Assembly (NCBI RefSeq): GCF_031195445.1
Contig: NZ_CP133480.1
Coordinates: 2,410,501 to 2,474,500, forward strand
Reading direction: 5' to 3'
Source: Acuticoccus sp. MNP-M23
GTDB lineage: Bacteria; Pseudomonadota; Alphaproteobacteria; Rhizobiales; Amorphaceae
DNA length: 64,000 nt
Shown: in pieces, positions 7,077-35,681 of the stretch
Layout: each line of letters opens with the position of its first letter
How positions within the stretch are numbered: position 1 is the stretch's first letter
Made by a program: the position numbers and the translations under genes
The notes under the pieces: model-generated
The model's database searches: none
Told to the model about the DNA's origin: nothing
The model's input: only the letters and a program-made list of their open reading frames with translations

Positions 7077-8339
7077 CTACTGCTGGGCCTGCGCGACCTG
7101 ATCGGCGATGTCCTGGTCCATCCGCGCGAAGGCGTCGTCCAGGGTCAGCTCGCCGGCCATCACCTGGCTGATGCGGGTGACGAGCGCACCGTAGTAGACG
7201 TTGGCCCACTTCCATGCCGGGAGCGCGGCTGCGTTGGGGGCCACCTCGGCGGAGGCCTCAACGAACTTGCCGAGCGCTGCGGCGACGTTCTTGTCCTCGG
7301 TCTGCCACTCGAGCCCGCCGTCCGACACCACGCCGGCGTGGGCGGGCAGGAACAGGGTACGCTCGGAGAATTCCTTCACGACTTCCGGCCGGGCGAGGAA
7401 TTCCATCACCTTGGCAACGTCCTCGGGGTTCTTGGTGTACTTGATCGCGACCAGCGCGGCGCCGCCGGCAAGGCCGGAGCAGGCGTCGGTGCCGCAGGGC
7501 GAGCCGATGGCCACCCAGTCGAACATGTCGCCGATCTTGGTGGAGAGGTTGGCGATCTGCCACGAGCCCGAATAATACATCGGGATTGCGGCGTTGATGA
7601 AGTCGTCCGCCGCGGCGCGGTAGGTGGAGCCTGCGGCCGACACCCACACGTCCTTCAGCATCTTGCCGTCGTTGGTCCAGTCGACGAGCTTGGTGGCGAA
7701 CGTCTTCACGCCGTCGTCAACCGGGGCGGGCATCCCGTCCGCGCCGATGTAGTTGGCGCCGTAGGAGACGTTCGGGCCCGAAATGCGGTGGCCGGAACGG
7801 TCGATGGCGAACGCGGCTTCAAGCTCCTGGTCGGCGGCGACCTTGGCGGAGGCGTCCACCCAGTCATCCCACGTGGCGCCCTGGCCGGGCATTTCCACGC
7901 CTGCCTGCTCGAACAGCGTCTTGTTGGCGAAGCCGCCGACCAGCGTGAGCTGGGTCATGAAGCCCGGAATGATGTCGGAGCCATCGGGGCGCATCCAGTC
8001 GAGCTGGGCGCCGAAATTCTCGCGCCAGTCGTCCGGGTTTTCGAGGTAGGGGGTGAGGTCGAGCCAGTGGCCCGCCTGTTCCTTGATGTTGGTGACGCGG
8101 GCGATATCGGGCCCTTCGCCGGCCTGAAGCTGGATCGGCAGCTGCTCCTGGATCACCTTGTAGGCCACGTTGTCGAGCGTGACGTTGATGTCCGGGTTTT
8201 CTTCCATGAACCGGTTCAGAAGGTCCTGGATCACTTCGCCTTCGACGCCATCGGAATACCACATCACCCGCACATCGCCGGCAAAAGCCGTGGTGGACAG
8301 GAATGCCGTGGCAAGGGCTGCGAGAACTGTTCTCTTCAT
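7077..8339 (-). CDS. Sugar ABC importer periplasmic substrate-binding protein (family 1)
   Basis: Periplasmic solute-binding protein of the MalE/UgpB cluster, 420 residues. It has a clean signal peptide (MKRTVLAALATAFLSTTAFA, cleavage near residue 20), an N-terminal lobe beginning VRVMWYSDGVEGEVIQDLLNRF, and the ARVTNIKEQAG segment typical of the hinge region. The ATG at 8339 has a strong GGAGGAAAC ribosome binding site. It opens the transporter part of the operon after a 68-base gap, the only real gap in an otherwise overlapping gene string, which may allow its usual higher expression. Neighbouring GH88/GH105 hydrolase suggests an acidic oligosaccharide as ligand; that is inference from context only. 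Confidence 0.92.
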   Translation of the reverse strand: MKRTVLAALATAFLSTTAFAGDVRVMWYSDGVEGEVIQDLLNRFMEENPDINVTLDNVAYKVIQEQLPIQLQAGEGPDIARVTNIKEQAGHWLDLTPYLENPDDWRENFGAQLDWMRPDGSDIIPGFMTQLTLVGGFANKTLFEQAGVEMPGQGATWDDWVDASAKVAADQELEAAFAIDRSGHRISGPNVSYGANYIGADGMPAPVDDGVKTFATKLVDWTNDGKMLKDVWVSAAGSTYRAAADDFINAAIPMYYSGSWQIANLSTKIGDMFDWVAIGSPCGTDACSGLAGGAALVAIKYTKNPEDVAKVMEFLARPEVVKEFSERTLFLPAHAGVVSDGGLEWQTEDKNVAAALGKFVEASAEVAPNAAALPAWKWANVYYGALVTRISQVMAGELTLDDAFARMDQDIADQVAQAQQ

Positions 8340-8360
8340 GGTTTCGTTTCCTCCGTTATT

Positions 8361-8374
8361 GTCTGTTTTCAGAC
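8361..8374. repeat. Short perfect inverted repeat upstream of the binding-protein gene
   Basis: GTCTG-TTTT-CAGAC, a 5-bp stem with a 4-base spacer, lies 22 bases upstream of the binding-protein ATG and just before its ribosome binding site. It could be a small operator or a leader hairpin separating expression of the enzyme and transporter parts of the operon. Its small size makes chance occurrence quite possible. Confidence 0.4.
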
Positions 8375-8407
8375 TTTATAGTTCGACGTTAGCAAGAAAT
8401 CGGGTGG

Positions 8408-10861
8408 TCAGCGCACCCTTCTTTCGCCGGCCACCGTCCATGTGGCCGGGTCGATGGTGATCCCCTCCGCCTCGATGCGCCCGTCGGGTTGGCATACGAC
8501 CGTGCCGTAGATCGGGTCGGCCATTGTGAGGACGCCGCGCGTGTCACCGGTTGCGGCAAGGCCCGCGAACTGTGCTGCGATGGCGGCGGGGGGCTCGGTG
8601 CTGGAAAGCGTGCGCACGATCCAGCGGGCCGCACGACCCGGAAGACGCAATTCCGAACCGGCGGACGGGCCGGTCTCGATCACTTGAAGCGGCCCCGATG
8701 CGACAATGACGAGCCGTCCGTTGCCGGACGCGCCAACCGCCACGTTGCCCTCGATGTGCACGGCATCGAACGCCGCAATCGGGAACAGCGCGTGCGTGAA
8801 GTCCGGCTGCGGGGCCACCCCGTCGAAAACGCAGACCGCGAGGCCGCGATACTGATGGACCCGCGGGATCGACGCCGAGCCGCCCCAGAAGGACGGGCGG
8901 CCGTAGCCTGAATGGATCACTTCGCCCGGCTGGTTGATGACGGCCTGCGCCTGCGCCTCGTCGCCGATCCGGGCGTGGAGGACGGTCTCCTGGTAGCCCC
9001 AGTCGAACCATCGGTAGGCGGCGGCGGTGCCGAGCGCCCAGTCGCGCGTCTTCGCGTGGGTGAGGGCTGCAAAGCCGCCTTCGCCCTGGCGGAAGGACCA
9101 GACCTGTTCGCCGTCTTCCAGCACGGCGCGAGCCTTGAGGTCAGGCAGTTCGAGGCCATGGTCGCGCAGGCAGAGCGCCAGCTGGGGGAGGGCATGGAAT
9201 CGGGTGCCGTAACTGCCGGCGCCCCATAGGAGCCGGGCGATGGCGGACAATTCCAGCGATCGGCTGGCGCGCAAGGTGTGCTCGTAGGAGCGGCCCTGCG
9301 CGCCGGTGAGAACGCCGCGGTGCGCCGAGTTGGCGACAATCTCGATGAGGCGGGCAATGCCGGCACCGGCGCGGGCGGCAATGTCAGCATCCGGCGCAAG
9401 CGCCTGAAGGGCGGTGAGTCCCTTGAGGTCGATGGGGAAATAGGGCGCGGAGTTGAACTCGGCCATTTCCCACGCCTCGAAGTGGTCGAGCCACGCGCGC
9501 ACGCGCGCCGCGCCGACGGCGCATTGTTCGGCGCCCTTGCGGCCGGAGCGCACGAAAGTGGCGTCCGGAAAATGGTGGCCGGCGAGGTAGGCGGCGGTGT
9601 GGAAGAGGAGCGCGTGGTTTTCGGAAAAATACCACTGCACGTCGTTGCCGGGCTCATCCATCCAGTAGCGATAGCCGAGGATGGCGGCGTCGATCTCGGT
9701 CTTGATGGCTTCGCCAAGCCCGTCCGCGAAGGCAATGCGGGACCATAGCAGCGGCACCAGCGCAAAATCCGCGCAATCCCAGCACGCGACAACGGGGCCG
9801 AGCGCCCGCGCAATCATCGCCTCGGTTTCGGGGCCGGTGCGGCCCGTGGCGAGGCGGGCAAGGGCCGCCACCGTATCGGGCTCGGCGCGGGTGGCGACGG
9901 TGTCCAGCGTTTCGGCAATGCGCTCGGCCAGTATTGCCGGGGCAGCGCCGCTGCTGCCGTGCGCGATTTCCACGCCGAGCGTGCGGGCGGCGGCGAAGCC
10001 GTCCATCTCCAGCGTAACGCGGAAGTGGCGAAAGTCGGCGGGAAGGGTTGCCGCGTCGCCAAGGTCCAGCGTGGCGGCGCCGGGGGGAAGCTCGCGCACA
10101 AGGTCGAGCCGTTCGTGGGACATGAAATCGCCCTCCACCCGGACCGTTGCCGTGGCGGCGGGCAGCGGAGCGGGGAAGAGAACCTGGACCGGGCCTTCGG
10201 TGTAGGCTGGCCTGTCGAAGTGCATTGCCGCCAGTGTCGCCTCTACGGCGGCCACTGTGTCTGGCGCCGCATCATACGGCATCAGCGCGGTGACGGGGGT
10301 GCCGGACAGCCATTCGAGGCTGATGAAGTGGCGTGTGTCCCGCTCGGCAAGATCGTCGAAATAGATGTCGATGTCGGTGGTACCGGCGGCAAGGTCTACG
10401 TCGATCTCGGTGCTGTCGTCAAAATTGCGGGTGTAGGGGGCGAGCCAGCCTGCCGCCGCGCCGTTCGCAAACAGGACCGCGCCGCCGGGGGTGGTGAGGC
10501 GGAAACGGGCAATGCCGCCTTCGCTGGCGATGCGGGTGCGCGCCCAGGTGGCAATGTGGGTGGGGCGGAACCAGAAGCCGGAACGGTCGAGCCGCTCGGA
10601 CGCGAAGGGGAGCACGTTTTCGGCGGGCTCGAAATCGTGGTTGGGCTCGGGCCGGATGCCGCGGCGCTCGGCGGCAAAGGCGGTCCGGCAGGGATATTCG
10701 TGCGGGATGAAATTCTTCGTTCTGGTGACGAAGAAGAACGGGTCCATCTCGCCGGCCATGGGCTGGTCGGGCACATCGTACGGCGTTTCCACCGTGCGGC
10801 CGATCCGCCAGTAGACCAGCGGCTGGCCAGCCTGGAGCGCGGCGTCAGCGCAGGTCATCAT
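8408..10861 (-). CDS. Uncharacterised large protein in the uronate operon, possibly a polysaccharide-lyase-like or hydrolase-like enzyme
   Basis: 817 residues; no family recognised with confidence. No signal peptide, so cytosolic. Residues about 40-290 look like beta-rich domains (alternating strands, e.g. ARFRLTTPGGAVLFANG, TEIDVDLAAGTTDIDIYF). Residues about 340-640 look like an alpha-helical barrel, with the notable stretch WYFSENHALLFHTAAYLAG and paired-helix repeats. Residues about 640-817 return to beta strands (RLVIVASGPLQVIE). A beta-sandwich, helical toroid, beta-sandwich order is found in several carbohydrate-active enzymes (heparinase/chondroitin-lyase-like folds, GH78-like proteins), but catalytic residues cannot be assigned. 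It overlaps the GH88/GH105 gene by 17 bases and precedes the importer, so a role in breaking down the imported sugar is likely. Confidence 0.75.
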   Translation of the reverse strand: MMTCADAALQAGQPLVYWRIGRTVETPYDVPDQPMAGEMDPFFFVTRTKNFIPHEYPCRTAFAAERRGIRPEPNHDFEPAENVLPFASERLDRSGFWFRPTHIATWARTRIASEGGIARFRLTTPGGAVLFANGAAAGWLAPYTRNFDDSTEIDVDLAAGTTDIDIYFDDLAERDTRHFISLEWLSGTPVTALMPYDAAPDTVAAVEATLAAMHFDRPAYTEGPVQVLFPAPLPAATATVRVEGDFMSHERLDLVRELPPGAATLDLGDAATLPADFRHFRVTLEMDGFAAARTLGVEIAHGSSGAAPAILAERIAETLDTVATRAEPDTVAALARLATGRTGPETEAMIARALGPVVACWDCADFALVPLLWSRIAFADGLGEAIKTEIDAAILGYRYWMDEPGNDVQWYFSENHALLFHTAAYLAGHHFPDATFVRSGRKGAEQCAVGAARVRAWLDHFEAWEMAEFNSAPYFPIDLKGLTALQALAPDADIAARAGAGIARLIEIVANSAHRGVLTGAQGRSYEHTLRASRSLELSAIARLLWGAGSYGTRFHALPQLALCLRDHGLELPDLKARAVLEDGEQVWSFRQGEGGFAALTHAKTRDWALGTAAAYRWFDWGYQETVLHARIGDEAQAQAVINQPGEVIHSGYGRPSFWGGSASIPRVHQYRGLAVCVFDGVAPQPDFTHALFPIAAFDAVHIEGNVAVGASGNGRLVIVASGPLQVIETGPSAGSELRLPGRAARWIVRTLSSTEPPAAIAAQFAGLAATGDTRGVLTMADPIYGTVVCQPDGRIEAEGITIDPATWTVAGERRVR

Positions 10862-11921
10862 GGTTCATCGCTTCGCCGAGGCACAGGAGCGCCATGGCCT
10901 GGCCATAGGCCGTGGGCTGGATCGGGATGGTGCGGTAAAAGTCGAGATCGTGGCCCATCCGCGTACCGTAGCTGACGTTCTGTAACGTGCCGGTGTCGTC
11001 GATGGATGCCATCACCGCGTGAACGGCCTTTATGCCAGCCGCCTTCCACGCCGGTGTGCCGAGACCCAGCCGGGCGCCCTTCAGCAGCGCGTAACCAAAG
11101 CCTGCGGTGGCGGACAACTCCTCGTAGCTTGACGGATCGTCGAGGAGGGTGCGCCAGGCGCCACTCTGGCACTGAAGTGGCAAGAGGGCATCCACTTGCG
11201 CCTTCAGAACGCCGGTGAGGAATGCTGCGACGGAGGGGGCAATGGTGGCAAGGTCCAGAAGATCGAGCACGCCTGCGCTGATCCACGCATTGCCGCGCGC
11301 CCAGCGCGCCCGCGCGAAATTGTGCCGCCCGTCAAACGTCCAGCCGTGGAACCACAGGCCGGTTGCCGGGTCCGCGAGATAGCGGGTGTGGACGAGGAAC
11401 TGGCGTTCCGCCTCGTCCACCAGATCGCGCCGGCCGGCACCCTCGCCATAGCTGGCGAGAAAGAGGGCCACCATGAAAAGCGTGTCGTCCCACAGTTCGC
11501 CTCGGTTTTTCTTGTCCGATACGTCGTGCTGGATGCCGCCCTCTTCGGTGCGCGGGGCATGTTCCAGAACGTCTTCTGCCCACTTTGCCAGAAGCGCGCC
11601 GTGGGCCGGATCGCCGCTTTCCCGCCACAACAGGGAGAGGGCCAGCATCGGCGCGGTGGTGTTGACATTTTGCGCCGGAAGCCCGGCTTCGATGCGCCGT
11701 TGGTACCAGCCTTCCAGCTCGTTCTTCAGCCGGGGCAGATGGCCTGCGCGCCAGAGCGAGGCGAGGGCGTAGAGGCCGACGCCCTGCGGCCATTCCCACG
11801 AATCGAAGCTGATATAGTCGCCCTTGGTGCCATCAAGGTTCGGCTCGTCGAACTGGCCTTCGTGGCGCAGCGCTGTCATCCCGGTGACGAGCTGGTGAAG
11901 ATTGGTTTCGAGGCGGCTCAT
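10845..11921 (-). CDS. Glycoside hydrolase family 88/105 unsaturated glycuronyl (rhamnogalacturonyl) hydrolase
   Basis: Probable cytosolic hydrolase removing the 4,5-unsaturated uronic acid left at the non-reducing end by polysaccharide lyases (YteR/YesR type). 358 residues, usual for the family, with no signal peptide. Motifs of the six-hairpin fold are visible: FDSWEWPQGVGLYAL near residue 40, LWDDTLFMVALF (catalytic Asp candidate) near residue 145, and RWARGNAWIS near residue 210. The ATG at 11921 overlaps the stop of the Gfo/Idh gene by 4 bases. It strongly suggests that the operon handles a lyase product such as a pectin, rhamnogalacturonan or ulvan-type oligomer. The exact linkage specificity cannot be read from sequence. 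Confidence 0.86.
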   Translation of the reverse strand: MSRLETNLHQLVTGMTALRHEGQFDEPNLDGTKGDYISFDSWEWPQGVGLYALASLWRAGHLPRLKNELEGWYQRRIEAGLPAQNVNTTAPMLALSLLWRESGDPAHGALLAKWAEDVLEHAPRTEEGGIQHDVSDKKNRGELWDDTLFMVALFLASYGEGAGRRDLVDEAERQFLVHTRYLADPATGLWFHGWTFDGRHNFARARWARGNAWISAGVLDLLDLATIAPSVAAFLTGVLKAQVDALLPLQCQSGAWRTLLDDPSSYEELSATAGFGYALLKGARLGLGTPAWKAAGIKAVHAVMASIDDTGTLQNVSYGTRMGHDLDFYRTIPIQPTAYGQAMALLCLGEAMNHDDLR

Positions 11922-26027: not shown

Positions 26028-27464
26028 ATGGGTGAGACGGCGGACCTTGTCATCAGGAACGGCATGGTTGCGACGGAGACATCGGTCTTCCCCGCGTCCA
26101 TCGCCGTGCGCGGCGGAAAGATTGTGGCGGTCGGCGCGGATGGGGACATGCCCCCCGCCACCGAGGAGATCGACGCCAGCGGCCTCACTGTCCTTCCCGG
26201 CGTGATCGACGTGCACGTCCATTTCCGCGAACCCGGCATGGACCACAAGGAAGACTGGGCGACCGGCACACGGGCCGCTGCCATGGGCGGCGTGACGACC
26301 GTGTTCGAGATGCCCAACACGGCCCCGCCGGTCTCCACCGCCGAGCGCTATCTGGCCAAGAAGGCCGTTGCCGAGTCTAAGGCCATTGTGGACTTCGGCC
26401 TCTACGGCGTCCTGTCGGAAGACAACCTTGCCGACCTCAAGCCGATGGCCGACGCCGGCGTGATCGGGTTCAAGCTGTTCCTCGGCAACACCACGGGCAA
26501 CCTGCCGTGCCCATCGGACGGGGCGGTGCTGGAAGCCTTCGAGATCATCGCGGGCCTTGGCAAGCGCATCTCGATCCATGCGGAAAACTCGCCGATCCTG
26601 TTCTGGCGCGAGGATCGCCTCCAGGCCGCCGGCCGCAACAATCCCATCGACCACCTGATGGCCCGCCACGACGTTGTGGCGGTCGAGGCCATGGCGCGCT
26701 CGTGCATCTTTGCCGAGGCCACCGGCGCGCGCATCCACATCGTCCACGAATCCTCGGCGATGAGCCTGCCCTACCTCAAGTTCTTCAAGGAGCGCGGCGT
26801 CGACGTCACCGTCGAAACCCTGCCGCAGTACCTCACGCTCGGCGTCGAAGACATGGACAGGCCGGGCGGTGAAGTGCTGCGGATGAACCCGCCGATCCGC
26901 CAGAAGTGGCAGAACGGCCCCTTGCGCAAAGCGCTGGCGGACGGGTCGATCGACATGATCTCCACCGACCATGCCCCCCACCTGCCCGAGGAGAAGATCG
27001 GCAACCGGATCTGGGACATTGCCTGCGGCTTTCCGGGCCTTGAAAGCCAGCTGCCGATCCTCCTCACCCTCGTCAACGAGGGGTTGATGCCGCTGACGCG
27101 CTACGTGCAGATCTCTTCGGCCAACCCGGCCCGCGCGTTCGGCCTCTACGGCACCAAGGGCGTGCTCCAGCCGGGCGCCGATGCCGACATCACGCTGGTG
27201 GATATGGACCGCCGCGAAACCCTGTCCGCCGCGCGCCTGTCGTCCAAGGGCAAGGTCTCGCCCTACGAGGGGATGGAAGTGACCGCCTGGCCGGTCGCCA
27301 CCATCGTGCGCGGCAAGCCGGTGATGCGCGACGGCAAGATCCTGGCCGAAGAGGGCTGGGGCGAGGTTGTGCAGCAGACCATGCCGGAGCCTGCGCCGCG
27401 CAATGTCGAAACGCATCTGTCCACCCTGGTGGGGGCATCGCCGGCGCCCGCAACCACGCGTTGA
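26028..27464 (+). CDS. Cyclic amidohydrolase: allantoinase / dihydroorotase-like
   Basis: 478 residues, metal-dependent ring-opening hydrolase. Start ATG 26028 with AAGGAG upstream (an in-frame GTG directly precedes it). Motifs of the dihydroorotase/allantoinase/hydantoinase group: GVIDVHVHFREPG near residue 58, MPNTAP near residue 98, GFKLFLGNTTG (Lys that is carbamylated in many members) near residue 147, SIHAEN near residue 185, HIVHESSA near residue 242 and STDHAPH near residue 314. The FREPG and PNTAP motifs favour dihydroorotase type I or AllB over dihydropyrimidinase. The true pyrimidine-synthesis dihydroorotase would normally sit with pyrB, which is absent here, so a catabolic role with the adjacent importer is more likely. 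Confidence 0.88.
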   Translation: MGETADLVIRNGMVATETSVFPASIAVRGGKIVAVGADGDMPPATEEIDASGLTVLPGVIDVHVHFREPGMDHKEDWATGTRAAAMGGVTTVFEMPNTAPPVSTAERYLAKKAVAESKAIVDFGLYGVLSEDNLADLKPMADAGVIGFKLFLGNTTGNLPCPSDGAVLEAFEIIAGLGKRISIHAENSPILFWREDRLQAAGRNNPIDHLMARHDVVAVEAMARSCIFAEATGARIHIVHESSAMSLPYLKFFKERGVDVTVETLPQYLTLGVEDMDRPGGEVLRMNPPIRQKWQNGPLRKALADGSIDMISTDHAPHLPEEKIGNRIWDIACGFPGLESQLPILLTLVNEGLMPLTRYVQISSANPARAFGLYGTKGVLQPGADADITLVDMDRRETLSAARLSSKGKVSPYEGMEVTAWPVATIVRGKPVMRDGKILAEEGWGEVVQQTMPEPAPRNVETHLSTLVGASPAPATTR

Positions 27465-27574
27465 CACATCAGGCGAATTGACCAACCATCGGGACCAATG
27501 GCCGCAGTTTTGCACGCGGCATCATAAAACAGGGCGCGTCAGCGCTCGATTGGGAAACGCGCAGGGGATGCTGG

Positions 27575-27630
27575 TGAAGCCTCATGATCGAGGCTTCAGA
27601 CGGTTCTCCTTCGCGTCAGAAGGAGAACCG
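27575..27630 (+). promoter_or_regulatory. Two adjacent leader hairpins, the second masking the ribosome binding site
   Basis: First hairpin: TGAAGCCTC (27575-27583) and GAGGCTTCA (27590-27598), 9 bp, 6-base loop. Second: CGGTTCTCCTTC (27601-27612) and GAAGGAGAACCG (27619-27630), 12 bp perfect, 6-base loop. The right arm of the second contains the AAGGAG Shine-Dalgarno of the binding-protein gene whose ATG is at 27634. With the stem formed, the ribosome site is fully paired. There is no T-run, so it is not a terminator. It could act as a translational switch, RNA thermometer or protein-binding site, or, as DNA, a palindromic operator. Confidence 0.8.
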
Positions 27631-27633
27631 GAA

Positions 27634-29001
27634 ATGACCACTCGTCTTGCGCGCCGCCTGTGCGGCACCGCGTCCACCGCGCTGATTGCGGCGCTGGCCC
27701 TTTCAGCCGGAACAATGGCTGCCAATGCCGACACCATCCGCTTCTGGACCACCGAGGAGCAGCCCGAGCGCCTCGCCAAGCAGGAAGAGACGGCCGCCGC
27801 CTTCAAGGAAGAGACCGGCCACACCGTCGAGGTGATTCCGGTGACCGAGAGTGATCTTGGCACCCGCGCCACCGCCGCCTACGCCGCTGGCGACCTGCCG
27901 GACGTGATCTATCACACCCTGCAATACGTGCTCCCGTGGGCCGAGGACGGCATCCTCGACGCGGAAACCAACGACGAGATCGTCGACGCGCTGGGCCGCG
28001 ATACCTTCGCCCCCGCCGCCCTCGCCATGGCCGACTTCGACGGCCTCACCGCCGCCGTTCCGGTGGACGGCTGGACGCAGATGATCGTCTATCGCAAGGA
28101 TCTCTTCGAGGAAGCGGGCCTTGCCGCGCCTGACACCTACGCCAACGTGGAAGCCGCCATCGAGGCGCTGCACAACCCGCCGGAAATGTACGGTTTCGTC
28201 GCCGCCACCAAGGTGGACGAGAACTTCATGAGCCAGGTGCTGGAGCACGTCTTCCTGGCCAACGGCGTGTCGGTGGTGGACGAGAACGGCTTCGCGCCGC
28301 TGGATGCGGCCGCCACCACCGAGGTGCTGGAATTCTACAAGGCGCTCGCCGACGCATCGCCCCCCGGCGACCTTTACTGGCAGCAGTCGCGCGAACTCTA
28401 TTTTGCGGGCAAGGCGGCGATGATCATCTGGTCGCCCTTCATCCTCGACGAGCTGGCCGGCCTGCGCGATGCCGCCCCCGTCACCATCAACGATGACCCG
28501 GCAAGCCGCGAGCTGGCCGACAAGACCGGCATTGTCACCAACTTCTCCGGCCCGTCCAACCCGGACGGCGCGGCGTGGGGCGACATCCGCTATCTCGGCG
28601 TGACGGCAGACGCCAACACCGACGTTGCGATGGAATTCGTCCTTTATTCCATGGACGAGGGCTACGAGTCGCTGCTCTCCATCGCGCCGGAAGGCAAGTT
28701 CCCGGTCCGCCGCGGCACCGAGGACGACCCCGAAAAGTTCGTGGCCGCGTGGGAGAAGCTTCCCGTCGGCGTCGACCGCAAGGCACCGCTGACCGAGCTT
28801 TATGATGCGGAAACCGTCAAGGAGATTGTGTCGGGTCTCGACACGGCATCCCGCTGGGGCGTCAACGAGGGGCAGCTGGCGCTGGCGTCCAAGATCATCA
28901 ACAGCCAGGAGATCAATCGTCTGGTGCGCCAGTATCTGGACGGCGAACGTGACGCAGCAGCCACCGTCGACGCCATGAACGACACCCTCTCCAAGATCTG
29001 A
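27634..29001 (+). CDS. Sugar ABC importer periplasmic substrate-binding protein (family 1), GH63-linked
   Basis: 455 residues, periplasmic. Start ATG 27634 is set by the signal peptide (MTTRLARRLCGTASTALIAA, then an ANA cleavage site near residue 33) and AGGAG 8 bases upstream; this site is inside a 12-bp hairpin. The mature chain begins TIRFWTTEEQPERLAKQEE, the MalE-type N-terminal lobe; WTQMIVYRKDLFEEAG and YFAGKAAMIIWSPF are typical family segments. It is the first gene of a five-gene operon with two permeases, a GH63-type hydrolase and the ATPase. The hydrolase suggests a glycosylglycerate-like ligand. Confidence 0.92.
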   Translation: MTTRLARRLCGTASTALIAALALSAGTMAANADTIRFWTTEEQPERLAKQEETAAAFKEETGHTVEVIPVTESDLGTRATAAYAAGDLPDVIYHTLQYVLPWAEDGILDAETNDEIVDALGRDTFAPAALAMADFDGLTAAVPVDGWTQMIVYRKDLFEEAGLAAPDTYANVEAAIEALHNPPEMYGFVAATKVDENFMSQVLEHVFLANGVSVVDENGFAPLDAAATTEVLEFYKALADASPPGDLYWQQSRELYFAGKAAMIIWSPFILDELAGLRDAAPVTINDDPASRELADKTGIVTNFSGPSNPDGAAWGDIRYLGVTADANTDVAMEFVLYSMDEGYESLLSIAPEGKFPVRRGTEDDPEKFVAAWEKLPVGVDRKAPLTELYDAETVKEIVSGLDTASRWGVNEGQLALASKIINSQEINRLVRQYLDGERDAAATVDAMNDTLSKI

Positions 29002-29046
29002 CGAAAGGGGCCGGTTGCCGGGCATACCGGCGGCCGGATCTTGCCC

Positions 29047-30339
29047 ATGAGCAAAAGCGCAGGACCACTCGTCGACAAGGGTGTCGGGCCCATCGCCCGG
29101 CGCGAGTCGCGGCTCGCCTACACCATGATCCTGCCCACGGTGGCCATCGTCATGGCCATCGTGCTTTTGCCGCTGGCGGCCAATATATGGATCAGCTTCA
29201 AGCCCGTCGGCATTGCGGACCTCCGCCCGCCGGCACTGCTTGCCAACGAGCGCCTGCGCGGCGACCTCGAAGCCGCGGGCGACGAGGCCACCATCCAGTA
29301 CCGGCTGCGCAATTCGTCGCGCGATGCCGCCCTGTCGGACACCACCCTCACCGACACGTTGCCCGAGGGCCTCGAGCCCATCGACCTCGACAGCCGATGC
29401 ACCCTCGAAGGGGGCTCGCTTTCCTGCGCGCTGGGCGCGTTCGATCCCGGCGCCCGCGGCGAACTCGAAATCCGCGTGCGTGCCGCCGAGGCGTACCTCG
29501 CCAATCCCATCAATCCGCGGGACAGCGATGCGCTGACCACCGTGCGCGCGCCCAACGTCCTCACCAACCTTGCATTCTCGCTCGAAAACTACCGTGCCGT
29601 GTTCGATGGCGAGGAGTTCATGCAGGTGCTGTGGGTGACGATTTTCTACACGCTGTTCGGCACGCTGGGCGCCATTGTGCTGGGCGTCATCGCAGCCCAG
29701 CTCCTCAACCGCGACTTTCGGGGCCGGTCGATCCTGCGCGGGCTCTACCTCTTTCCCTACGTTGCGCCGGTCATTGCCATGGCGTTCACGTGGCTTGTGC
29801 TGTTCGACCCATTTTCCGGCACGATCAACGCGATGATCCAGGCGATGGGCGTGGCGGGCGAGCCGGTCAACTTCTTCGGCGCGCGGATGGTGCCGGTCTC
29901 CATCTTCGGCCTCGAATTCGGCTTCCCGCTGGCGCTCGCCATGGTGATCGCCTTCGAGGCATGGCGCTATTTTCCGCTGTCGTTCCTGTTCATCCTGGCG
30001 CGGATGCAATCGATCCCGACCGACATGTACGAAGCGGCCGACATGGACGGCGCAACCCCGTTCCAGAAATTCTTCCGCCTCTCGATGCCACAGATCGTCG
30101 GCATTCTGGCGGTCCTGTTCCTGTTGCGCTTCATCTGGACGTTCAACAAGTTCGACGACATCTTCCTGCTCACGGGCGGCGCCGCCGGCACCCGCACCCT
30201 GACGGTTGACGTTTATTATCAGGGATTTGCCATTGGCAACCTCGGCGCGGGCGCTGCCGTTGCGGTGGTGATCTTCGTGATGCTTCTCATCTTCGCGCTG
30301 CTCTATTTCCGCGCGCTGCCGAAAGGGGAGGGGCTATGA
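29047..30339 (+). CDS. MalF-type ABC importer permease with an inserted DUF11-like domain
   Basis: 430 residues. Helix 1 spans about residues 26-48. The loop between helix 1 and helix 2 (about 52-190) is greatly enlarged and contains, at about 78-148, a segment with the look of a DUF11 (bacterial Ig-like, conserved-repeat) domain: IQYRLRN, TDTLPEGLEPI, two Cys (118 and 127) around a GG turn, then CALGAFDPGARGELEIRVRA. By topology this loop faces the periplasm. The core BPD_transp_1 domain follows, with the EAA loop MYEAADMDGATPFQKFFRL near residue 332. E. coli MalF also has a large P2 loop that contacts the binding protein, so a similar docking role is inferred. Its stop overlaps the next start by 4 bases. 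Confidence 0.9.
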   Translation: MSKSAGPLVDKGVGPIARRESRLAYTMILPTVAIVMAIVLLPLAANIWISFKPVGIADLRPPALLANERLRGDLEAAGDEATIQYRLRNSSRDAALSDTTLTDTLPEGLEPIDLDSRCTLEGGSLSCALGAFDPGARGELEIRVRAAEAYLANPINPRDSDALTTVRAPNVLTNLAFSLENYRAVFDGEEFMQVLWVTIFYTLFGTLGAIVLGVIAAQLLNRDFRGRSILRGLYLFPYVAPVIAMAFTWLVLFDPFSGTINAMIQAMGVAGEPVNFFGARMVPVSIFGLEFGFPLALAMVIAFEAWRYFPLSFLFILARMQSIPTDMYEAADMDGATPFQKFFRLSMPQIVGILAVLFLLRFIWTFNKFDDIFLLTGGAAGTRTLTVDVYYQGFAIGNLGAGAAVAVVIFVMLLIFALLYFRALPKGEGL

Positions 30340-31601
30340 CCCCCGCACAGGCTGCCCGTGCCCGGATGGAAGCACCCCGCTTTCCGGGCTGGCTCACCGC
30401 CGGTGTTCTCGGCCTCCTGTGGGGCGCCACGCTGCATCTCCTTGGCGGTGTCACGCTCACCCTCATCACCGGCACGGCAATGACGCCGCAACTGGGCGGT
30501 GCTGCCGTTGCGGGCCTCGTTGCGGGCCTGGCGCTGGCCTGGCGCCCGCTGGAGGAGCGCACATTCGGCTTCCGCGCGATTGTCATGGCTCTGGTGGCCG
30601 CGCTCATTGTGGCGGCGGCATTCGGCGCGCCCTATGGCCAGCCGCTCGACCACGCATCACTCTGGCAGATGGCCGGTCTGCTGCTGACAGCCGTGGCGCT
30701 CGTCAACATCCTTTCGGCCAACCTGCGCACCGTCACGCTGGCAAGGCAGACGCGGCGGGCGACCGAGCATGCGCTGGCGTCAAGCCTCGGCATTTTCGGC
30801 CACCTGTTCTTTGCGGTAATCGTGATCCTGCCGTTCTACGTGCTGGTGATGACGAGCTTCAAGACGCAGCAGAGCCTGATCGCCAACCCGCTCGACCTGT
30901 CGATCGACTTCAGCCAAGGCTTCGACAGCCTGTTCGACAGCTACATCCAGCTCTTCACCACCTACGACTTTGGCCGCTACATGCTGATCTCGTTCGTGGT
31001 CTCCACGCTGACGGTGGTGATCTGCCTCGCCTTCGCGGTGCCGGGCGCCTATGCGGTGGCGCGGCTCAACTTCCCCGGCCGGCAGGCGCTGTCGCGCTCG
31101 ATCCTCCTCATCTACCTCGTCCCGGCCATCGTCCTCGTCATCCCGCTCTACGCGGTGTTCTCGCAGCTGGGCTTGCGCAACACGGTGGTCGGCCTCCTCA
31201 TCGTCTATCCCGCCACCACGCTGCCGGTGGCGATCTACATGCTCTCCGGCTATTTCCGCGGCGTGCCGGCGGAGCTTGAGGAGGCAGGGCTGATGGACGG
31301 GCTGTCGCGCGTCGGCGTCATCCGCAAGATCACGCTGCCGCTGTCGCTCCCGGCGCTCGCCTCGGTCGGCCTCTACGTTTTCATGATCGCGTGGAACGAG
31401 TTCCTGTTCGCGTTCATGTTCCTCGACGATCCCAAGATCTTCACGCTTTCCCGCGCGGTGGTCTCGCTGAATTCCAGCGAGGTGCCGCGGCAATATCTGA
31501 TGGCTGGTGCCGTGGTGACGACGATCCCGATCCTGTTCCTCTTCCTCCTTGCCGAACGCTTCATGGTAAAGGGCCTCACTGCCGGCGGCGTGAAGGGATG
31601 A
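30336..31601 (+). CDS. MalG-type ABC importer permease with extra N-terminal membrane helices
   Basis: 421 residues, against about 280-300 for a usual MalG-type permease. The first 130 residues carry about four additional hydrophobic segments (WLTAGVLGLLWGATLHLLGG; AAVAGLVAGLALAW; AIVMALVAALIVAAAFGAP; WQMAGLLLTAVALVNILSA). The normal domain starts near residue 148 (HLFFAVIVILPFYVLVMTSFK) and has the EAA loop ELEEAGLMDGLSRVGVIRKITLP near residue 310. It overlaps both neighbours by 4 bases (ATGA). Whether the extra helices serve transport or are a fused membrane module is unknown. Confidence 0.9.
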   Translation: MTPAQAARARMEAPRFPGWLTAGVLGLLWGATLHLLGGVTLTLITGTAMTPQLGGAAVAGLVAGLALAWRPLEERTFGFRAIVMALVAALIVAAAFGAPYGQPLDHASLWQMAGLLLTAVALVNILSANLRTVTLARQTRRATEHALASSLGIFGHLFFAVIVILPFYVLVMTSFKTQQSLIANPLDLSIDFSQGFDSLFDSYIQLFTTYDFGRYMLISFVVSTLTVVICLAFAVPGAYAVARLNFPGRQALSRSILLIYLVPAIVLVIPLYAVFSQLGLRNTVVGLLIVYPATTLPVAIYMLSGYFRGVPAELEEAGLMDGLSRVGVIRKITLPLSLPALASVGLYVFMIAWNEFLFAFMFLDDPKIFTLSRAVVSLNSSEVPRQYLMAGAVVTTIPILFLFLLAERFMVKGLTAGGVKG

Positions 31602-32866
31602 GCCGCGACGACGAAGCCATCGCCATCCTGCGCGAGAACGACCGCGGCACCTTCTCCGTCCCCACCAAGGGGCTCTACCCGTTCCAGTGGAACTGGGATT
31701 CGGCGTTTGCATCGCTCGGCTATGCCCACCTCGATCCGGCCCGCGCCGTGCGCGAACTCAAGACGCTGGCCGCCGCCCAGTGGACCGACGGGATGATCCC
31801 GCACATCATCTTCCACAGCAACGACGACGGCTATTTTCCGGGCCCCGACGTGTGGGGCAGCGGGCACGCGGTGCCGACCTCGGGCATCACCCAGCCCCCC
31901 GTGCTCGCCATTGCGGCGGAGCGGCTTCTGGCGCGCGGCGCACTCGGCGGGGCCGATCTTGCGGGGCTGGTGGAGGCCATCGACCGCTGGCACCGCTGGT
32001 TCCAGATCGCAAGGCGCGATCCTGACACCGGCGCCATCGCCGTCATCCACCCGTGGGAGTCCGGCCGCGACAACCTGCCGGACTGGGATGGCCCGTTGGA
32101 GGCCGTGGACGCCAGCAACGTCGCCCCCTTCCAGCGCCGCGACCTCGGCCATGTCGACGCCGCAATGCGCCCCACAAAAGAGCAGTATGAGCGCTACATC
32201 GCGCTGGTGGAGTTCGGCCGCTCGGTCGCCTGGAACCAGGCGGCGATGCCGGAGAAATCGCCTTTCTTCGTCGCCGACCCCGGCATGACCGCAATCCTCG
32301 CCCGCGCCGAAACCGCGCTCGCCACCCTGGCCGAAGCCGCCGGCAGGCTGGACCTCGCGGCGAAAGCGAATGAACGCGCGCAAGCGCTGCGTGCCGGCAT
32401 GGACCGGCTGTGGAGCGACGAGGTCGCCGCCTACACCACGCGCGACGTGCGCACCGGCAAGCGCGGCACGGCGGTCTCCGCCGCTTCGTTCCTCGGCTTT
32501 CTCGCAGGCGGCCTGCCGCCGGAGCGCGCCGCCGCCCTCAACGCCCACTTCGACCGGATGGCTGAGGCGTGCCGCTACATGTGCCCCAGCTGGGACCCGG
32601 CAGCGCCCGACTTTGACGAGAAACGCTACTGGCGCGGCCCGGTGTGGCTGGTGGTCAACTGGCTGATCGCGATGGGCCTTGCCGAGCGGGGCGACGCGGC
32701 CCGTGCCGAGCGGGTGCGCGCAGACAGCGCGGCGCTCGTCAAGAATGGCGGTTTTTACGAATATTACAGCCCCCTCGACGGGGCCCCGCTGGGTGGCGGC
32801 AGTTTCACGTGGACGGCCGCCGCCTGGCTCGATTTTGCAAAAGGGGCCGGCGATGGCACGCATTGA
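31598..32866 (+). CDS. GH63/MGH1-like glycoside hydrolase (mannosylglycerate/glucosylglycerate hydrolase type)
   Basis: 422 residues, cytosolic alpha-toroid hydrolase. Start ATG 31598 overlaps the permease stop; the longer frame upstream shadows the permease. Features of the MGH1-like group: FSVPTKGLYPFQWNWDSAF near residue 20 (conserved WDSAF), QWTDGMIPHIIFH near residue 64, VIHPWESGRDNLPDWD near residue 148 (catalytic Asp candidate), and YWRGPVWLVVNWLI near residue 348 in the C-terminal active-site wall. Bacterial members of this size hydrolyse mannosylglycerate or glucosylglycerate, compatible solutes. Encoded inside the importer operon, it probably cleaves the imported solute. A disaccharide such as kojibiose-like sugar cannot be excluded. 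Confidence 0.85.
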   Translation: MSRDDEAIAILRENDRGTFSVPTKGLYPFQWNWDSAFASLGYAHLDPARAVRELKTLAAAQWTDGMIPHIIFHSNDDGYFPGPDVWGSGHAVPTSGITQPPVLAIAAERLLARGALGGADLAGLVEAIDRWHRWFQIARRDPDTGAIAVIHPWESGRDNLPDWDGPLEAVDASNVAPFQRRDLGHVDAAMRPTKEQYERYIALVEFGRSVAWNQAAMPEKSPFFVADPGMTAILARAETALATLAEAAGRLDLAAKANERAQALRAGMDRLWSDEVAAYTTRDVRTGKRGTAVSAASFLGFLAGGLPPERAAALNAHFDRMAEACRYMCPSWDPAAPDFDEKRYWRGPVWLVVNWLIAMGLAERGDAARAERVRADSAALVKNGGFYEYYSPLDGAPLGGGSFTWTAAAWLDFAKGAGDGTH

Positions 32867-33923
32867 TCTTCAGGACATCCGCAAATCCTTCGGCGCCGTC
32901 GAGGTCATCAAGGGCGTCGACCTTGCCATCGAGGACAAGGAGTTTGTGGTGTTCGTCGGCCCGTCCGGCTGCGGCAAGTCCACCATGCTGCGCCTGATTG
33001 CGGGACTGGAAGAGACCACCGCAGGCAAGATCCTGATTGACGGCAAGGATGTGACGGCGCTGTCGGCGCCCGAGCGCGGCCTTTCCATGGTGTTCCAGTC
33101 CTATGCCCTCTATCCGCACCTGACGGTGCGCGAGAACATGGCGTTTCCGCTGTCGGTCGCCGGCGCGTCCAAGGCCGACATCAAGGCTGCGGTGGACGAC
33201 ACCGCCGCCATCCTGCGCCTCGAGCCGCTACTCGACCGCAAGCCCAAGGATCTGTCGGGCGGCCAGCGCCAGCGCGTTGCCATCGGCCGCGCCATCGTGC
33301 GCGCGCCCGCCGCCTTCCTGTTCGACGAACCGCTTTCAAATCTGGATGCCGCATTGCGCGTCCAGATGCGCATCGAGATTGCCCGTCTGCGCACCAAGCT
33401 CGATGCCACGATGATCTACGTCACCCACGATCAGGTGGAGGCGATGACGCTGGCGGACCGCATTGTCGTGTTCTCCGCCGGCAAGATCGAGCAGATGGGC
33501 GCCCCGCTTGAGCTGTACCGCAACCCGTCCAACATTTTCGTTGCCACCTTCATCGGCTCGCCGACCATGAACATCCTGCCGTGCGAACCCGGCAGCACCG
33601 CCGGTGAGGCCCGCGTCGGCGACAGGACACTGACGACGGAGCGCAAGGTGGACGCCGCCCGCCGCCCGGTGCAGCTCGGCATCCGGCCGGAAGACCTCTG
33701 GCTGACAAGCGAGGAAGACGCGGACTTCACCGGCCCCATTGTGGTTGCCGAGCATCTGGGCGGCGACAGCTTCTACTATATTGAGGTAGCCGGGCTCGGC
33801 GAACTGACCGTGCGCGCGCCCGGCGACCATGTGGCGCGCCTTGGCGAGGTGCTGCACCTGAAGGCCAGGCGCGACAACATCCACCTCTTCGACGGTGACG
33901 AGCGGACAATCACCAGCATCTGA
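32853..33923 (+). CDS. Carbohydrate ABC importer ATP-binding protein (UgpC/MalK type), GH63-linked
   Basis: 356 residues. Start ATG 32853 lies within the end of the GH63 gene (14-base overlap). Walker A GPSGCGKS at about residues 36-43, signature LSGGQRQR, Walker B AFLFDEP and H-loop THDQ are intact; the C-terminal TOBE region ends near residue 350. Close in sequence to the ATPase at 3.9 kb, as expected of this subfamily. It ends the five-gene operon, with a terminator directly behind it. Confidence 0.94.
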   Translation: MARIDLQDIRKSFGAVEVIKGVDLAIEDKEFVVFVGPSGCGKSTMLRLIAGLEETTAGKILIDGKDVTALSAPERGLSMVFQSYALYPHLTVRENMAFPLSVAGASKADIKAAVDDTAAILRLEPLLDRKPKDLSGGQRQRVAIGRAIVRAPAAFLFDEPLSNLDAALRVQMRIEIARLRTKLDATMIYVTHDQVEAMTLADRIVVFSAGKIEQMGAPLELYRNPSNIFVATFIGSPTMNILPCEPGSTAGEARVGDRTLTTERKVDAARRPVQLGIRPEDLWLTSEEDADFTGPIVVAEHLGGDSFYYIEVAGLGELTVRAPGDHVARLGEVLHLKARRDNIHLFDGDERTITSI

Positions 33924-33986: not shown

Positions 33987-35570
33987 TTAGCCGCGGTCGA
34001 CGACGCTGAGGTCGACGACGCGAACTTCAACCCGGCGGTTTTCCGGCGAACGCTCGTCTTCGGACGCCGGAACCTCGGTGTTCTGTTCGCCGAGGCTGCG
34101 GGTGCGCACCGCAGCGGCGCTGATGCCCATCTCGATGAGCGCGGCTTCGACAGCACTCACGCGGCGCTCGGAAAGTTCCTTGTTGTACTGCGTGTTGCCG
34201 ATCGGGCTGGCGTAGCCGGTGAGGAGAACGGCTGCATTCTGCGTGCCGTCCACCAGAGCCTTGATTTCAGTCAGGACGTTGGCGCGCGCCTCGGCCGTGA
34301 TTTCGCTGGAATCAAACGCGAAGCCGACTTCCAGAACTGCGATGGCTTCCAGCTCGGCGGCCGCGACGACGACGTCGGTGTCAACGTCGGCAATCACGAT
34401 CGTCGGCGCAGCTTCGGTCTGGACGGCAACGTCTGCGCCGCCGCTCTCACGCATGGCGCTGACGGAGGCGGTGTCCGCCATGTCGGTGCTGACCGCGGGG
34501 GCTTCCTGCGCAACGGCAACTTCGGCTTCACCCTGCGACACGGCAACCTTCGCCGCATTCTGGCTGACGTCGACGATAGGCTCGGCCTGAGCGACGTTCA
34601 CCTGGGGCGCTGCCTGGGCCACGTTCACGATGGGCTCGGATTCCTCGACCTTCACCCGCGCTTCCTGCTGGACGACCTCGATCTCGGGCTGGCGCTGCGT
34701 CACGCTGACTTCGGGGCTGACCTGCTCGACGGAGACGTTGGGCTCGGCCTGCGTCACGGCGACCTGCGGCTCGGCGGCCTGCACGATCACGCGCGGCTCG
34801 GGCTGCACGACGGATACCTGCGGCTCGGGCTGTGAGACGGTGATCTTCGGCTGCGGCTGGTTGATGACCACTTCGGGCTGGAACTGGCGCACGATGATCT
34901 CGGGCTCGGGCTGCTCGATGGTCACGCGCGGCTGCGTCTGCTCGACGGCGATTTCCGGCTGCGACTGCTGCACGGTCACGCGCGGTGCCGGCTGGCTGAC
35001 CTCAACCTGGGGCGCTGCGGCCTGCACGTCGACGACGGCTTCCGGCTGGGTCACGTCAACGCGCTGCTGCGGTGCGGACACGGTCACGTCGGACCGCGGC
35101 TGGCGCACTTCGATTTCCGCAGCGCGCTGGGAGACGTCGACCGAAGTCGCGCCCTGCTCGACCGAAACGTCCGCTTCAGCGGCGGCAACGGCAACCTGCG
35201 CGGGGACGGCTTCGACCATCACGGTGCTGGCTTCGGCGCTGGCGACAAGCTGGATGAGCTGCTGCGTGCGGGCAATGGCGGTGGCGTCGGACGCACCGGC
35301 AATCTCGTAGCCGGCGTCGGCCATCATGGTCTGCGACTGCGAAAGCACCGCGAAGCAGTTGCCGGGCGTGTCGCCAACGGCGTCGGCGAGCTGAAGCTCG
35401 ACATCGTTGAACATGGCTTCAATTGCGGGGAACGCGTCATCACCGCGGACGGTATCCTTGAACGCTGCGACTTCGGCCTCGCATGACATTTCGGCAGTTT
35501 GTGCCATTGCCGGCGCCGCCGAGATGATCGCAGCCGCCGTTGACAGGAGAATAAGTTTCTTGTGGTGCAT
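33987..35570 (-). CDS. OmpA-domain cell-envelope protein with 26 nonapeptide repeats
   Basis: 527 residues, exported. Start ATG 35570 is supported by GGAGG upstream and a signal peptide (MHHKKLILLSTAAAIISAAP, AMA cleavage near residue 23). Residues 24-123 are a small domain with two Cys (30 and 72). Residues 124-357 are 26 gap-free nine-residue repeats of pattern P-x-V/I-x-V-x-Q-x-x. After an acidic linker, residues about 412-520 form an OmpA/MotB peptidoglycan-binding domain (VGFAFDSSEITAEARANVL; GYASPIGNTQYNKELSERR; GENRRVEV-like end SPENRRVEVRV). It probably links the outer envelope or an extended rod to peptidoglycan. No known family covers the repeat part to my knowledge. Confidence 0.88.
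   Translation of the reverse strand: MHHKKLILLSTAAAIISAAPAMAQTAEMSCEAEVAAFKDTVRGDDAFPAIEAMFNDVELQLADAVGDTPGNCFAVLSQSQTMMADAGYEIAGASDATAIARTQQLIQLVASAEASTVMVEAVPAQVAVAAAEADVSVEQGATSVDVSQRAAEIEVRQPRSDVTVSAPQQRVDVTQPEAVVDVQAAAPQVEVSQPAPRVTVQQSQPEIAVEQTQPRVTIEQPEPEIIVRQFQPEVVINQPQPKITVSQPEPQVSVVQPEPRVIVQAAEPQVAVTQAEPNVSVEQVSPEVSVTQRQPEIEVVQQEARVKVEESEPIVNVAQAAPQVNVAQAEPIVDVSQNAAKVAVSQGEAEVAVAQEAPAVSTDMADTASVSAMRESGGADVAVQTEAAPTIVIADVDTDVVVAAAELEAIAVLEVGFAFDSSEITAEARANVLTEIKALVDGTQNAAVLLTGYASPIGNTQYNKELSERRVSAVEAALIEMGISAAAVRTRSLGEQNTEVPASEDERSPENRRVEVRVVDLSVVDRG
34500..35201 (-). repeat. Coding array of 26 tandem 27-base units (nonapeptide repeats)
   Basis: The array encodes 26 consecutive nine-residue units without insertion or deletion, e.g. 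PQVEVSQPA, PRVTVQQSQ, PEIAVEQTQ, PEVVINQPQ, PKITVSQPE. The alternating small/valine pattern predicts one short beta strand per unit with Gln and Pro at the turns. Units differ at most third positions, so this is an old, selected array rather than a recent slippage repeat. Confidence 0.9.
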
Positions 35571-35681
35571 GAGAATGCCTCCGTTAAGTACGAAAGAAGA
35601 AGACATTCCCAGCCCGAGTCGTTCCGGCGCAATTTTAAGCTATCCCCGAAATTGGCCTCAACGTCATAGTTGTGTTGATGA

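Follow-up and report, generated by a model that had tools for sequence, protein, structure and literature searches.

The 64,000-nt stretch of DNA analysed here (the window) comes from a marine Acuticoccus species and carries an operon of the sugar ABC type, whose features are collected in Table 1. Its first gene encodes a solute-binding protein and is followed by genes for two permeases, an MGH1-like glycoside hydrolase and a MalK-type ATPase (together 29041-33923). An identical gene set was found in genome G005, which has the closest ortholog of the binding-protein gene (86% identity), and in Acuticoccus mangrovi (G002; 81%). Between the binding-protein and first permease genes lies a stable stem-loop (29002-29046), imperfect in the window itself (-30.7 kcal/mol), similar to the intercistronic hairpins that are credited with promoting binding-protein expression. 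Judged by eye, a long stretch near the N-terminus of permease 1 (residues ~60-170) does not look membrane-spanning, and it falls outside the sole Pfam match (211-421). On the minus strand, 33987-35606 encodes a protein whose OmpA domain is preceded by a lengthy series of near-repeated short units.

Two perfect hairpins precede the binding-protein gene. In H1, TGAAGCCTC (27575-27583) pairs with GAGGCTTCA (27590-27598) and, after a 2-nt spacer (27599-27600), the arms of H2, CGGTTCTCCTTC (27601-27612) and GAAGGAGAACCG (27619-27630), pair at 12 of 12 positions. A sequence-only reading of this DNA had described a 12-bp perfect hairpin holding the whole Shine-Dalgarno (SD) sequence in its right arm, with a 9-bp hairpin 2 bases upstream, and both descriptions proved correct; the ATG that it placed 4 bases after the stem (27634-27636) lies 3 nt past it. 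It was also right that no T-run follows: GAAATG comes next, neither inspection of the sequence nor a terminator scan revealed a T-run downstream of the stem, and H2 was on this ground dismissed as an intrinsic terminator.

The in-frame upstream starts GTG 27574 and ATG 27568, which would place the hairpins within the coding frame, are not favoured, because the N-terminus read from ATG 27634 resembles, by eye, the start of a signal peptide, as in the orthologs. The -35 element of a candidate promoter overlaps the stop codon of the upstream amidohydrolase gene. A consensus promoter scan of the leader returned no site, the -10 matching at 3 of 6 positions; a similar TTGACA-N17-AACACT can be read by eye ~206 nt upstream of the ATG of the G005 ortholog. 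The start codon of a possible 17-codon open reading frame sits in the loop of H1. This candidate frame has only a weak SD-like signal, GGTGA, and by a rough estimate its geometry is not rare by chance (a few percent).

Table 1. Features of the window, of L114 (from the sample of the own genome) and of the ortholog locus L009; coordinates are those of the respective sequence
Sequence	Feature	Position	Strand	Remarks
Window	Candidate promoter	27461-27489	+	TTGACA-N17-AACCAT; putative, read by eye
Window	Competitor strand	27557-27573	+	can pair with H2 left arm; includes SD-like AGGGGA 27563-27568
Window	Competing extended hairpin	27557-27616	+	60 nt; encloses H1, takes H2 left arm, frees SD arm (predicted)
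Window	Hairpin H1	27575-27598	+	9 bp perfect, loop ATGATC
Window	Possible 17-codon ORF	27584-27637	+	MIEASDGSPSRQKENRK; TGA overlaps main ATG as ATGA
Window	Hairpin H2	27601-27630	+	12 bp perfect, loop GCGTCA, right arm with SD
Window	SD AAGGAG	27620-27625	+	8 nt upstream of ATG
Window	Solute-binding protein gene	27634-29001	+	Pfam SBP_bac_1 / SBP_bac_8
Window	Permease 1	29041-30339	+	operon gene
Window	Permease 2	30336-31601	+	operon gene
Window	MGH1-like glycoside hydrolase	about 31601-32866	+	operon gene
Window	MalK-type ATPase	about 32847-33923	+	operon gene
L114	Long stem	11108-11137		ends 6 nt upstream of predicted start; SD not found by script
L114	Long stem	7521-7555		overlaps another predicted start; SD not found by script
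L009	LacI-type gene (ortholog locus)	7801-8961		same strand as binding-protein gene, directly upstream

Predicted folding and accessibility of the Shine-Dalgarno sequence

The sequence-only reading had proposed folding the segment 27465-27660. This leader folds at -87.9 kcal/mol (z = -4.64), a value that none of 200 shuffles reached, and the H2 stem contributes a predicted -22.9 kcal/mol. The SD is predicted to be paired in a stable local hairpin, with an unpaired probability of 0.0001 at 10 °C, 0.0004 at 37 °C and 0.0043 at 65 °C. On these predictions the leader is a candidate for a known kind of element, the cis-encoded SD-sequestering leader.

The same values bear on temperature sensing, one of the uses that had been suggested for such a build. 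The RNA thermometers ROSE and fourU likewise hold the SD in a hairpin adjoining the start codon. The stem in the window is, however, a perfect 12 bp and predicted to be too stable to melt at growth temperature; opening stays at a predicted 0.0001-0.0007 between 10 and 45 °C and below 0.5% even at 65 °C. That H2 acts as an RNA thermometer is thus scarcely credible.

The sequence-only reading had missed a second fold, in which the strand at 27557-27573 pairs with the left arm of H2. The resulting extended hairpin is predicted at -35.8 kcal/mol, against -38.0 kcal/mol for H1 plus H2. It is nearly complete for a transcript ending at 27612 and is the minimum free energy structure for transcripts ending at 27616, 27618, 27622 and 27626, while from 27630 onwards H1 plus H2 is predicted to win. 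Keeping the SD open is predicted to cost 3.8-6.5 kcal/mol when the RNA ends at 27630-27645. For RNA that extends to 27660-27760, and so covers the first 27-127 coding nucleotides, the predicted cost is 11.5-16.8 kcal/mol. In the structures obtained for ends 27660 and 27680, the upstream strand is paired to the early part of the coding sequence, and this pairing closes a junction that encloses both hairpins.

Shuffling the 20 nt at 27555-27574 (single bases rather than dinucleotides) 3000 times gave an equally good competitor in 1.5% of cases, and 3000 random 20-mers from the window did so in 0.27%. We consider this a modest, suggestive test rather than a strong one; SD-like upstream stretches in general would pair somewhat with a left arm that is complementary to the SD.

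Translational riboswitches use competing SD and anti-SD pairings, and the two mutually exclusive folds predicted here, one hiding and one freeing the SD, are alike in this respect. They differ in that no known aptamer and no relatives were found: the leader matched no Rfam family at gathering score (best sub-threshold E = 3.9), and the searches with a two-hairpin model described below yielded no accepted relative.

Long stems in the genome

To judge how unusual H2 is, we compared it with the window and with a 464-kb sample of the 5.16-Mb genome (the window and twenty 20-kb stretches), in which gene starts, like those at the relatives' loci, were predicted by simple scripts rather than by a gene finder. 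With up to 3 mismatches allowed, the H2 pattern matched once in the window and never in 100 shuffles. Perfect stems of at least 12 bp (loop 3-8) numbered 12 in the sample where ~0.4 were expected, so that long stems form a real class in this genome. Eight of the 12 are placed like terminators, no more than 60 nt from the 3' end of a predicted gene, and besides H2 only two are located at predicted starts, both in L114 (Table 1).

Among the 353 predicted starts of the sample, 199 bear an SD, and just one of these, the start of the binding-protein gene, has its SD within a perfect stem of at least 8 bp; the next two have 7-bp stems over the SD. By local folding energy (-24.1 kcal/mol) the same start ranks only ~12th of the 353, which indicates that strongly folded start regions are no rarity in this GC-rich genome. 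The rarity therefore rests on the perfect stem over the SD and not on local folding energy. From the sample rate, we estimate that chance would provide ~0.05 stems of at least 12 bp over an SD per genome; a chance origin would then be unlikely for one genome and non-negligible across many scanned genomes.

Orthologous leaders and the LacI-type regulator

The binding-protein gene was detected at E <= 1e-50 in six of the eight genus genomes, own genome included. For the comparison of leaders we assembled 85 loci, namely the window, those of four further Acuticoccus genomes and the best 80 of 587 confirmed relatives in GTDB genomes. A perfect stem of at least 7 bp over the SD occurs in the window and at none of the 84 other loci (best 80 of 587 relatives plus the four Acuticoccus); L037 has a 6-bp stem over its SD, and the local fold at the start reaches -24.1 kcal/mol in the window vs -11.5 kcal/mol at the next locus within the same set (best 80 of 587). 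Of 397 genomes of the order, only the own one contains the exact 11-bp core of H2. Even the G005 leader cannot be aligned to that of the window, 121 of 200 shuffles scoring as well or better, and no hairpin like H2 was found in it.

The set was able to reveal a shared hairpin where one exists. Perfect stems of at least 8 bp within 100 nt after the binding-protein stop codon occur at 46 of the 85 loci (best 80 of 587 relatives included), compared with a mean of 1.4 and a maximum of 4 in 20 shuffles. Within 100 nt before the start, any perfect stem of at least 8 bp was found at five of the 85 (same best 80 of 587), against a mean of 1.1 in shuffles.

These two counts pull in opposite directions for the idea that the tandem hairpins serve to stabilise the operon mRNA at its 5' end or to provide a site for a double-strand-specific RNase. 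Two stable hairpins do stand at the 5' end of the operon and post-stop hairpins are common in relatives, but pre-start stems are few and a stem over the SD would cost translation. We regard such a processing role as decidedly improbable.

It had been proposed that a genuine switch should be kept in related species along with its gene. Relatives keep the gene and not the stem, which disfavours a conserved switch; with the stem at one of 85 loci (best 80 of 587 relatives included), there are no compensatory changes to be sought. The proposed switch architecture hence stands in part, strong SD sequestration and a competing fold being predicted and the stem being absent in relatives, and to judge from these alignments and searches the switch reading is without comparative or evolutionary support.

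A model of the two hairpins, R1, had the window sequence, entered twice, as its sole input and is in effect a single-sequence model. Over the 85 sources (best 80 of 587 relatives, LacI-linked loci included), only the window scored below E = 3. At E <= 5 it matched in five of the eight genus genomes, own included, the best outside the own genome being in G007 (E = 0.0064) and G001 (E = 0.146). Both were rejected as unrelated: the G007 match is a stem that closely follows the 3' end of an amidohydrolase gene encoded on the opposite strand, and the G001 match is without four of the nine H1 pairs and keeps only the outer part of H2.

An 8-bp core pattern of H2 was found in three of ten family genomes (own, G001 and G004), once each in G001 and G004, where it lies inside long open frames of coding-like base composition and was taken as chance. 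A G006 match near a related hydrolase gene falls within a distant permease coding sequence and was likewise discarded, and a search of plasmids gave a single weak match, from Streptomyces, which involves a different part of the leader.

LacI-type control is a known mode of regulation for alphaproteobacterial sugar ABC operons, and most operons of this type in our set are preceded by a LacI-type gene. A LacI-like ORF was detectable at 71 of the 85 loci (best 80 of 587 relatives included), and at 67 of them it directly precedes the binding-protein gene in the same orientation (for example at L009; Table 1); the other four are weaker matches on the opposite strand. In the window, by contrast, no LacI-like ORF (E <= 1e-8, at least 150 aa) was found from 12 kb upstream to 14 kb downstream. 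Such ORFs were also absent from the G003, G004, G005 and G007 stretches, examined over 1.5 kb upstream. At E <= 1e-40 the A. mangrovi LacI matched neither the own genome nor six others of the genus, A. mangrovi itself being the one positive among eight. The window operon is thus without the usual LacI-type neighbour, as is the G005 operon within the 1.5 kb covered.

This weakens the alternative, raised by the sequence-only reading, that the palindrome is a DNA operator at which a dimeric repressor binds 27601-27630, and perhaps 27575-27598 as well, to block transcription. The dyad symmetry of H2 is perfect and, in our set, LacI-type regulators accompany most of the orthologous operons, but no LacI-like ORF was found from 12 kb upstream to 14 kb downstream in the window, the own genome had no match to the A. 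mangrovi LacI at E <= 1e-40, and no second site with up to 3 mismatches was found in the 5.16-Mb genome. Moreover, H1 and H2 have no common half-site, the dyad starts ~110 nt past the candidate promoter, the two-hairpin model found nothing below E = 3 in the 84 other sources, LacI-linked loci among them (best 80 of 587 relatives), and the position over the SD would be accidental. An operator is therefore improbable.

The feature having been found in one species only, a neutral recent palindrome is a serious rival. Perfect inverted repeats can arise via quasi-palindrome correction or template switching, and H2 could be a recent accident of local copying error, neutral or mildly harmful, tolerated through co-transcriptional ribosome loading or weak expression. 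Consistent with this are the single locus among 85 with the stem (best 80 of 587 relatives included), the absence of the 11-bp core from all but one of the order's 397 genomes, the lack of a further copy in that one genome, a leader unrelated to that of the closest ortholog (G005), and perfect arms, which are compatible with a young event. An accident would, however, not need the exact placement over the SD, the adjoining perfect hairpin or the near-isoenergetic competing fold. A very stable stem over an SD is also expected to be costly if unrelieved, and this one is predicted at -22.9 kcal/mol. On balance we find an accidental origin rather unlikely. A literature search on template switching and perfect hairpins in bacterial genomes brought up nothing relevant among the papers listed.

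A candidate translational brake

The best explanation in our view, evenly balanced between right and wrong, is that H2 acts as a lineage-specific, cis-acting RNA lock that restrains translation of the binding protein and is lifted when the competing fold forms or a ribosome passes through the 17-codon ORF. The leader z of -4.64, the SD unpaired probability of 0.0004 at 37 °C, the singular position among 199 SD-bearing starts and the missing T-run all suggest such a lock. Against it are the 84 other loci without the stem (best 80 of 587 relatives included) and, in particular, G005, which has no LacI-like gene in the 1.5 kb examined upstream either and yet no such hairpin.

In the mature mRNA, H2 would hide the SD of the binding-protein gene and so lower its translation in vivo. 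In nascent RNA, the competing fold would hold the left arm of H2 and leave the SD arm free, until H1 and H2 take over once the SD arm has been made (end 27630). Relief might be kinetic, with ribosomes loading on nascent mRNA before H2 forms, or might depend on coupling, a ribosome that translates the 17-codon ORF crossing H2 and either unfolding the RNA or reinitiating at ATGA.

SD-masking structures relieved by upstream translation have been described in a review (PMC12548453). The window leader is similar to such translational coupling or attenuation in that the SD of the downstream gene is predicted to be masked by RNA structure and a short candidate frame upstream overlaps the start codon as ATGA. 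It differs in that this frame is a 17-codon candidate with weak initiation signals and is not conserved.

Because the operon is without its usual upstream LacI-type gene, the RNA brake may stand in for the repressor and may have assumed some of its role. A fuller version, which we hold to be quite improbable, is that after loss of a LacI-type repressor the operon gained a bistable RNA leader, in which the co-transcriptional fold would free the SD, the mature fold would lock it and the 17-codon ORF would reopen it. If true, the leader would represent RNA control replacing a repressor protein within one bacterial genus. If H2 is functional at all, it would be a recently evolved translational brake and would show RNA regulation emerging where a repressor gene was lost; if not, it is a perfect SD-masking palindrome that arose and persisted in one lineage. 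Either way, it cautions against taking a hairpin from a single genome as an established switch.

The own genome was also searched for further copies of the leader. None was found at E <= 0.001 or by the stem patterns, and a repeat or mobile element was excluded by this single-copy status. In a relaxed search, 10 other places in the genome matched approximately over 24 nt (CGTCAGAAGGAGA + CGGAxATGA); in the two copies that were read (L103 and L111), the match corresponds to the start of an IS-like transposase gene. The alignment of the window leader with this element beats 500 of 500 shuffles. Since the match was picked from 5 Mb for its similarity, the aligned stretch lies partly outside the element and the BLAST E-value is 1.14, we treated the likeness as chance around an SD and not as kinship. 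The element, which we take to be possibly of the IS3 family, is multi-copy (G000:C1:1763307, the L103 copy, and nine further places) and has a short stretch in common with the leader. In the L103 and L111 copies, a 7-bp hairpin, CTCCGTC / GACGGAG, stands upstream of the putative transposase start and carries an SD-like stretch in its loop.
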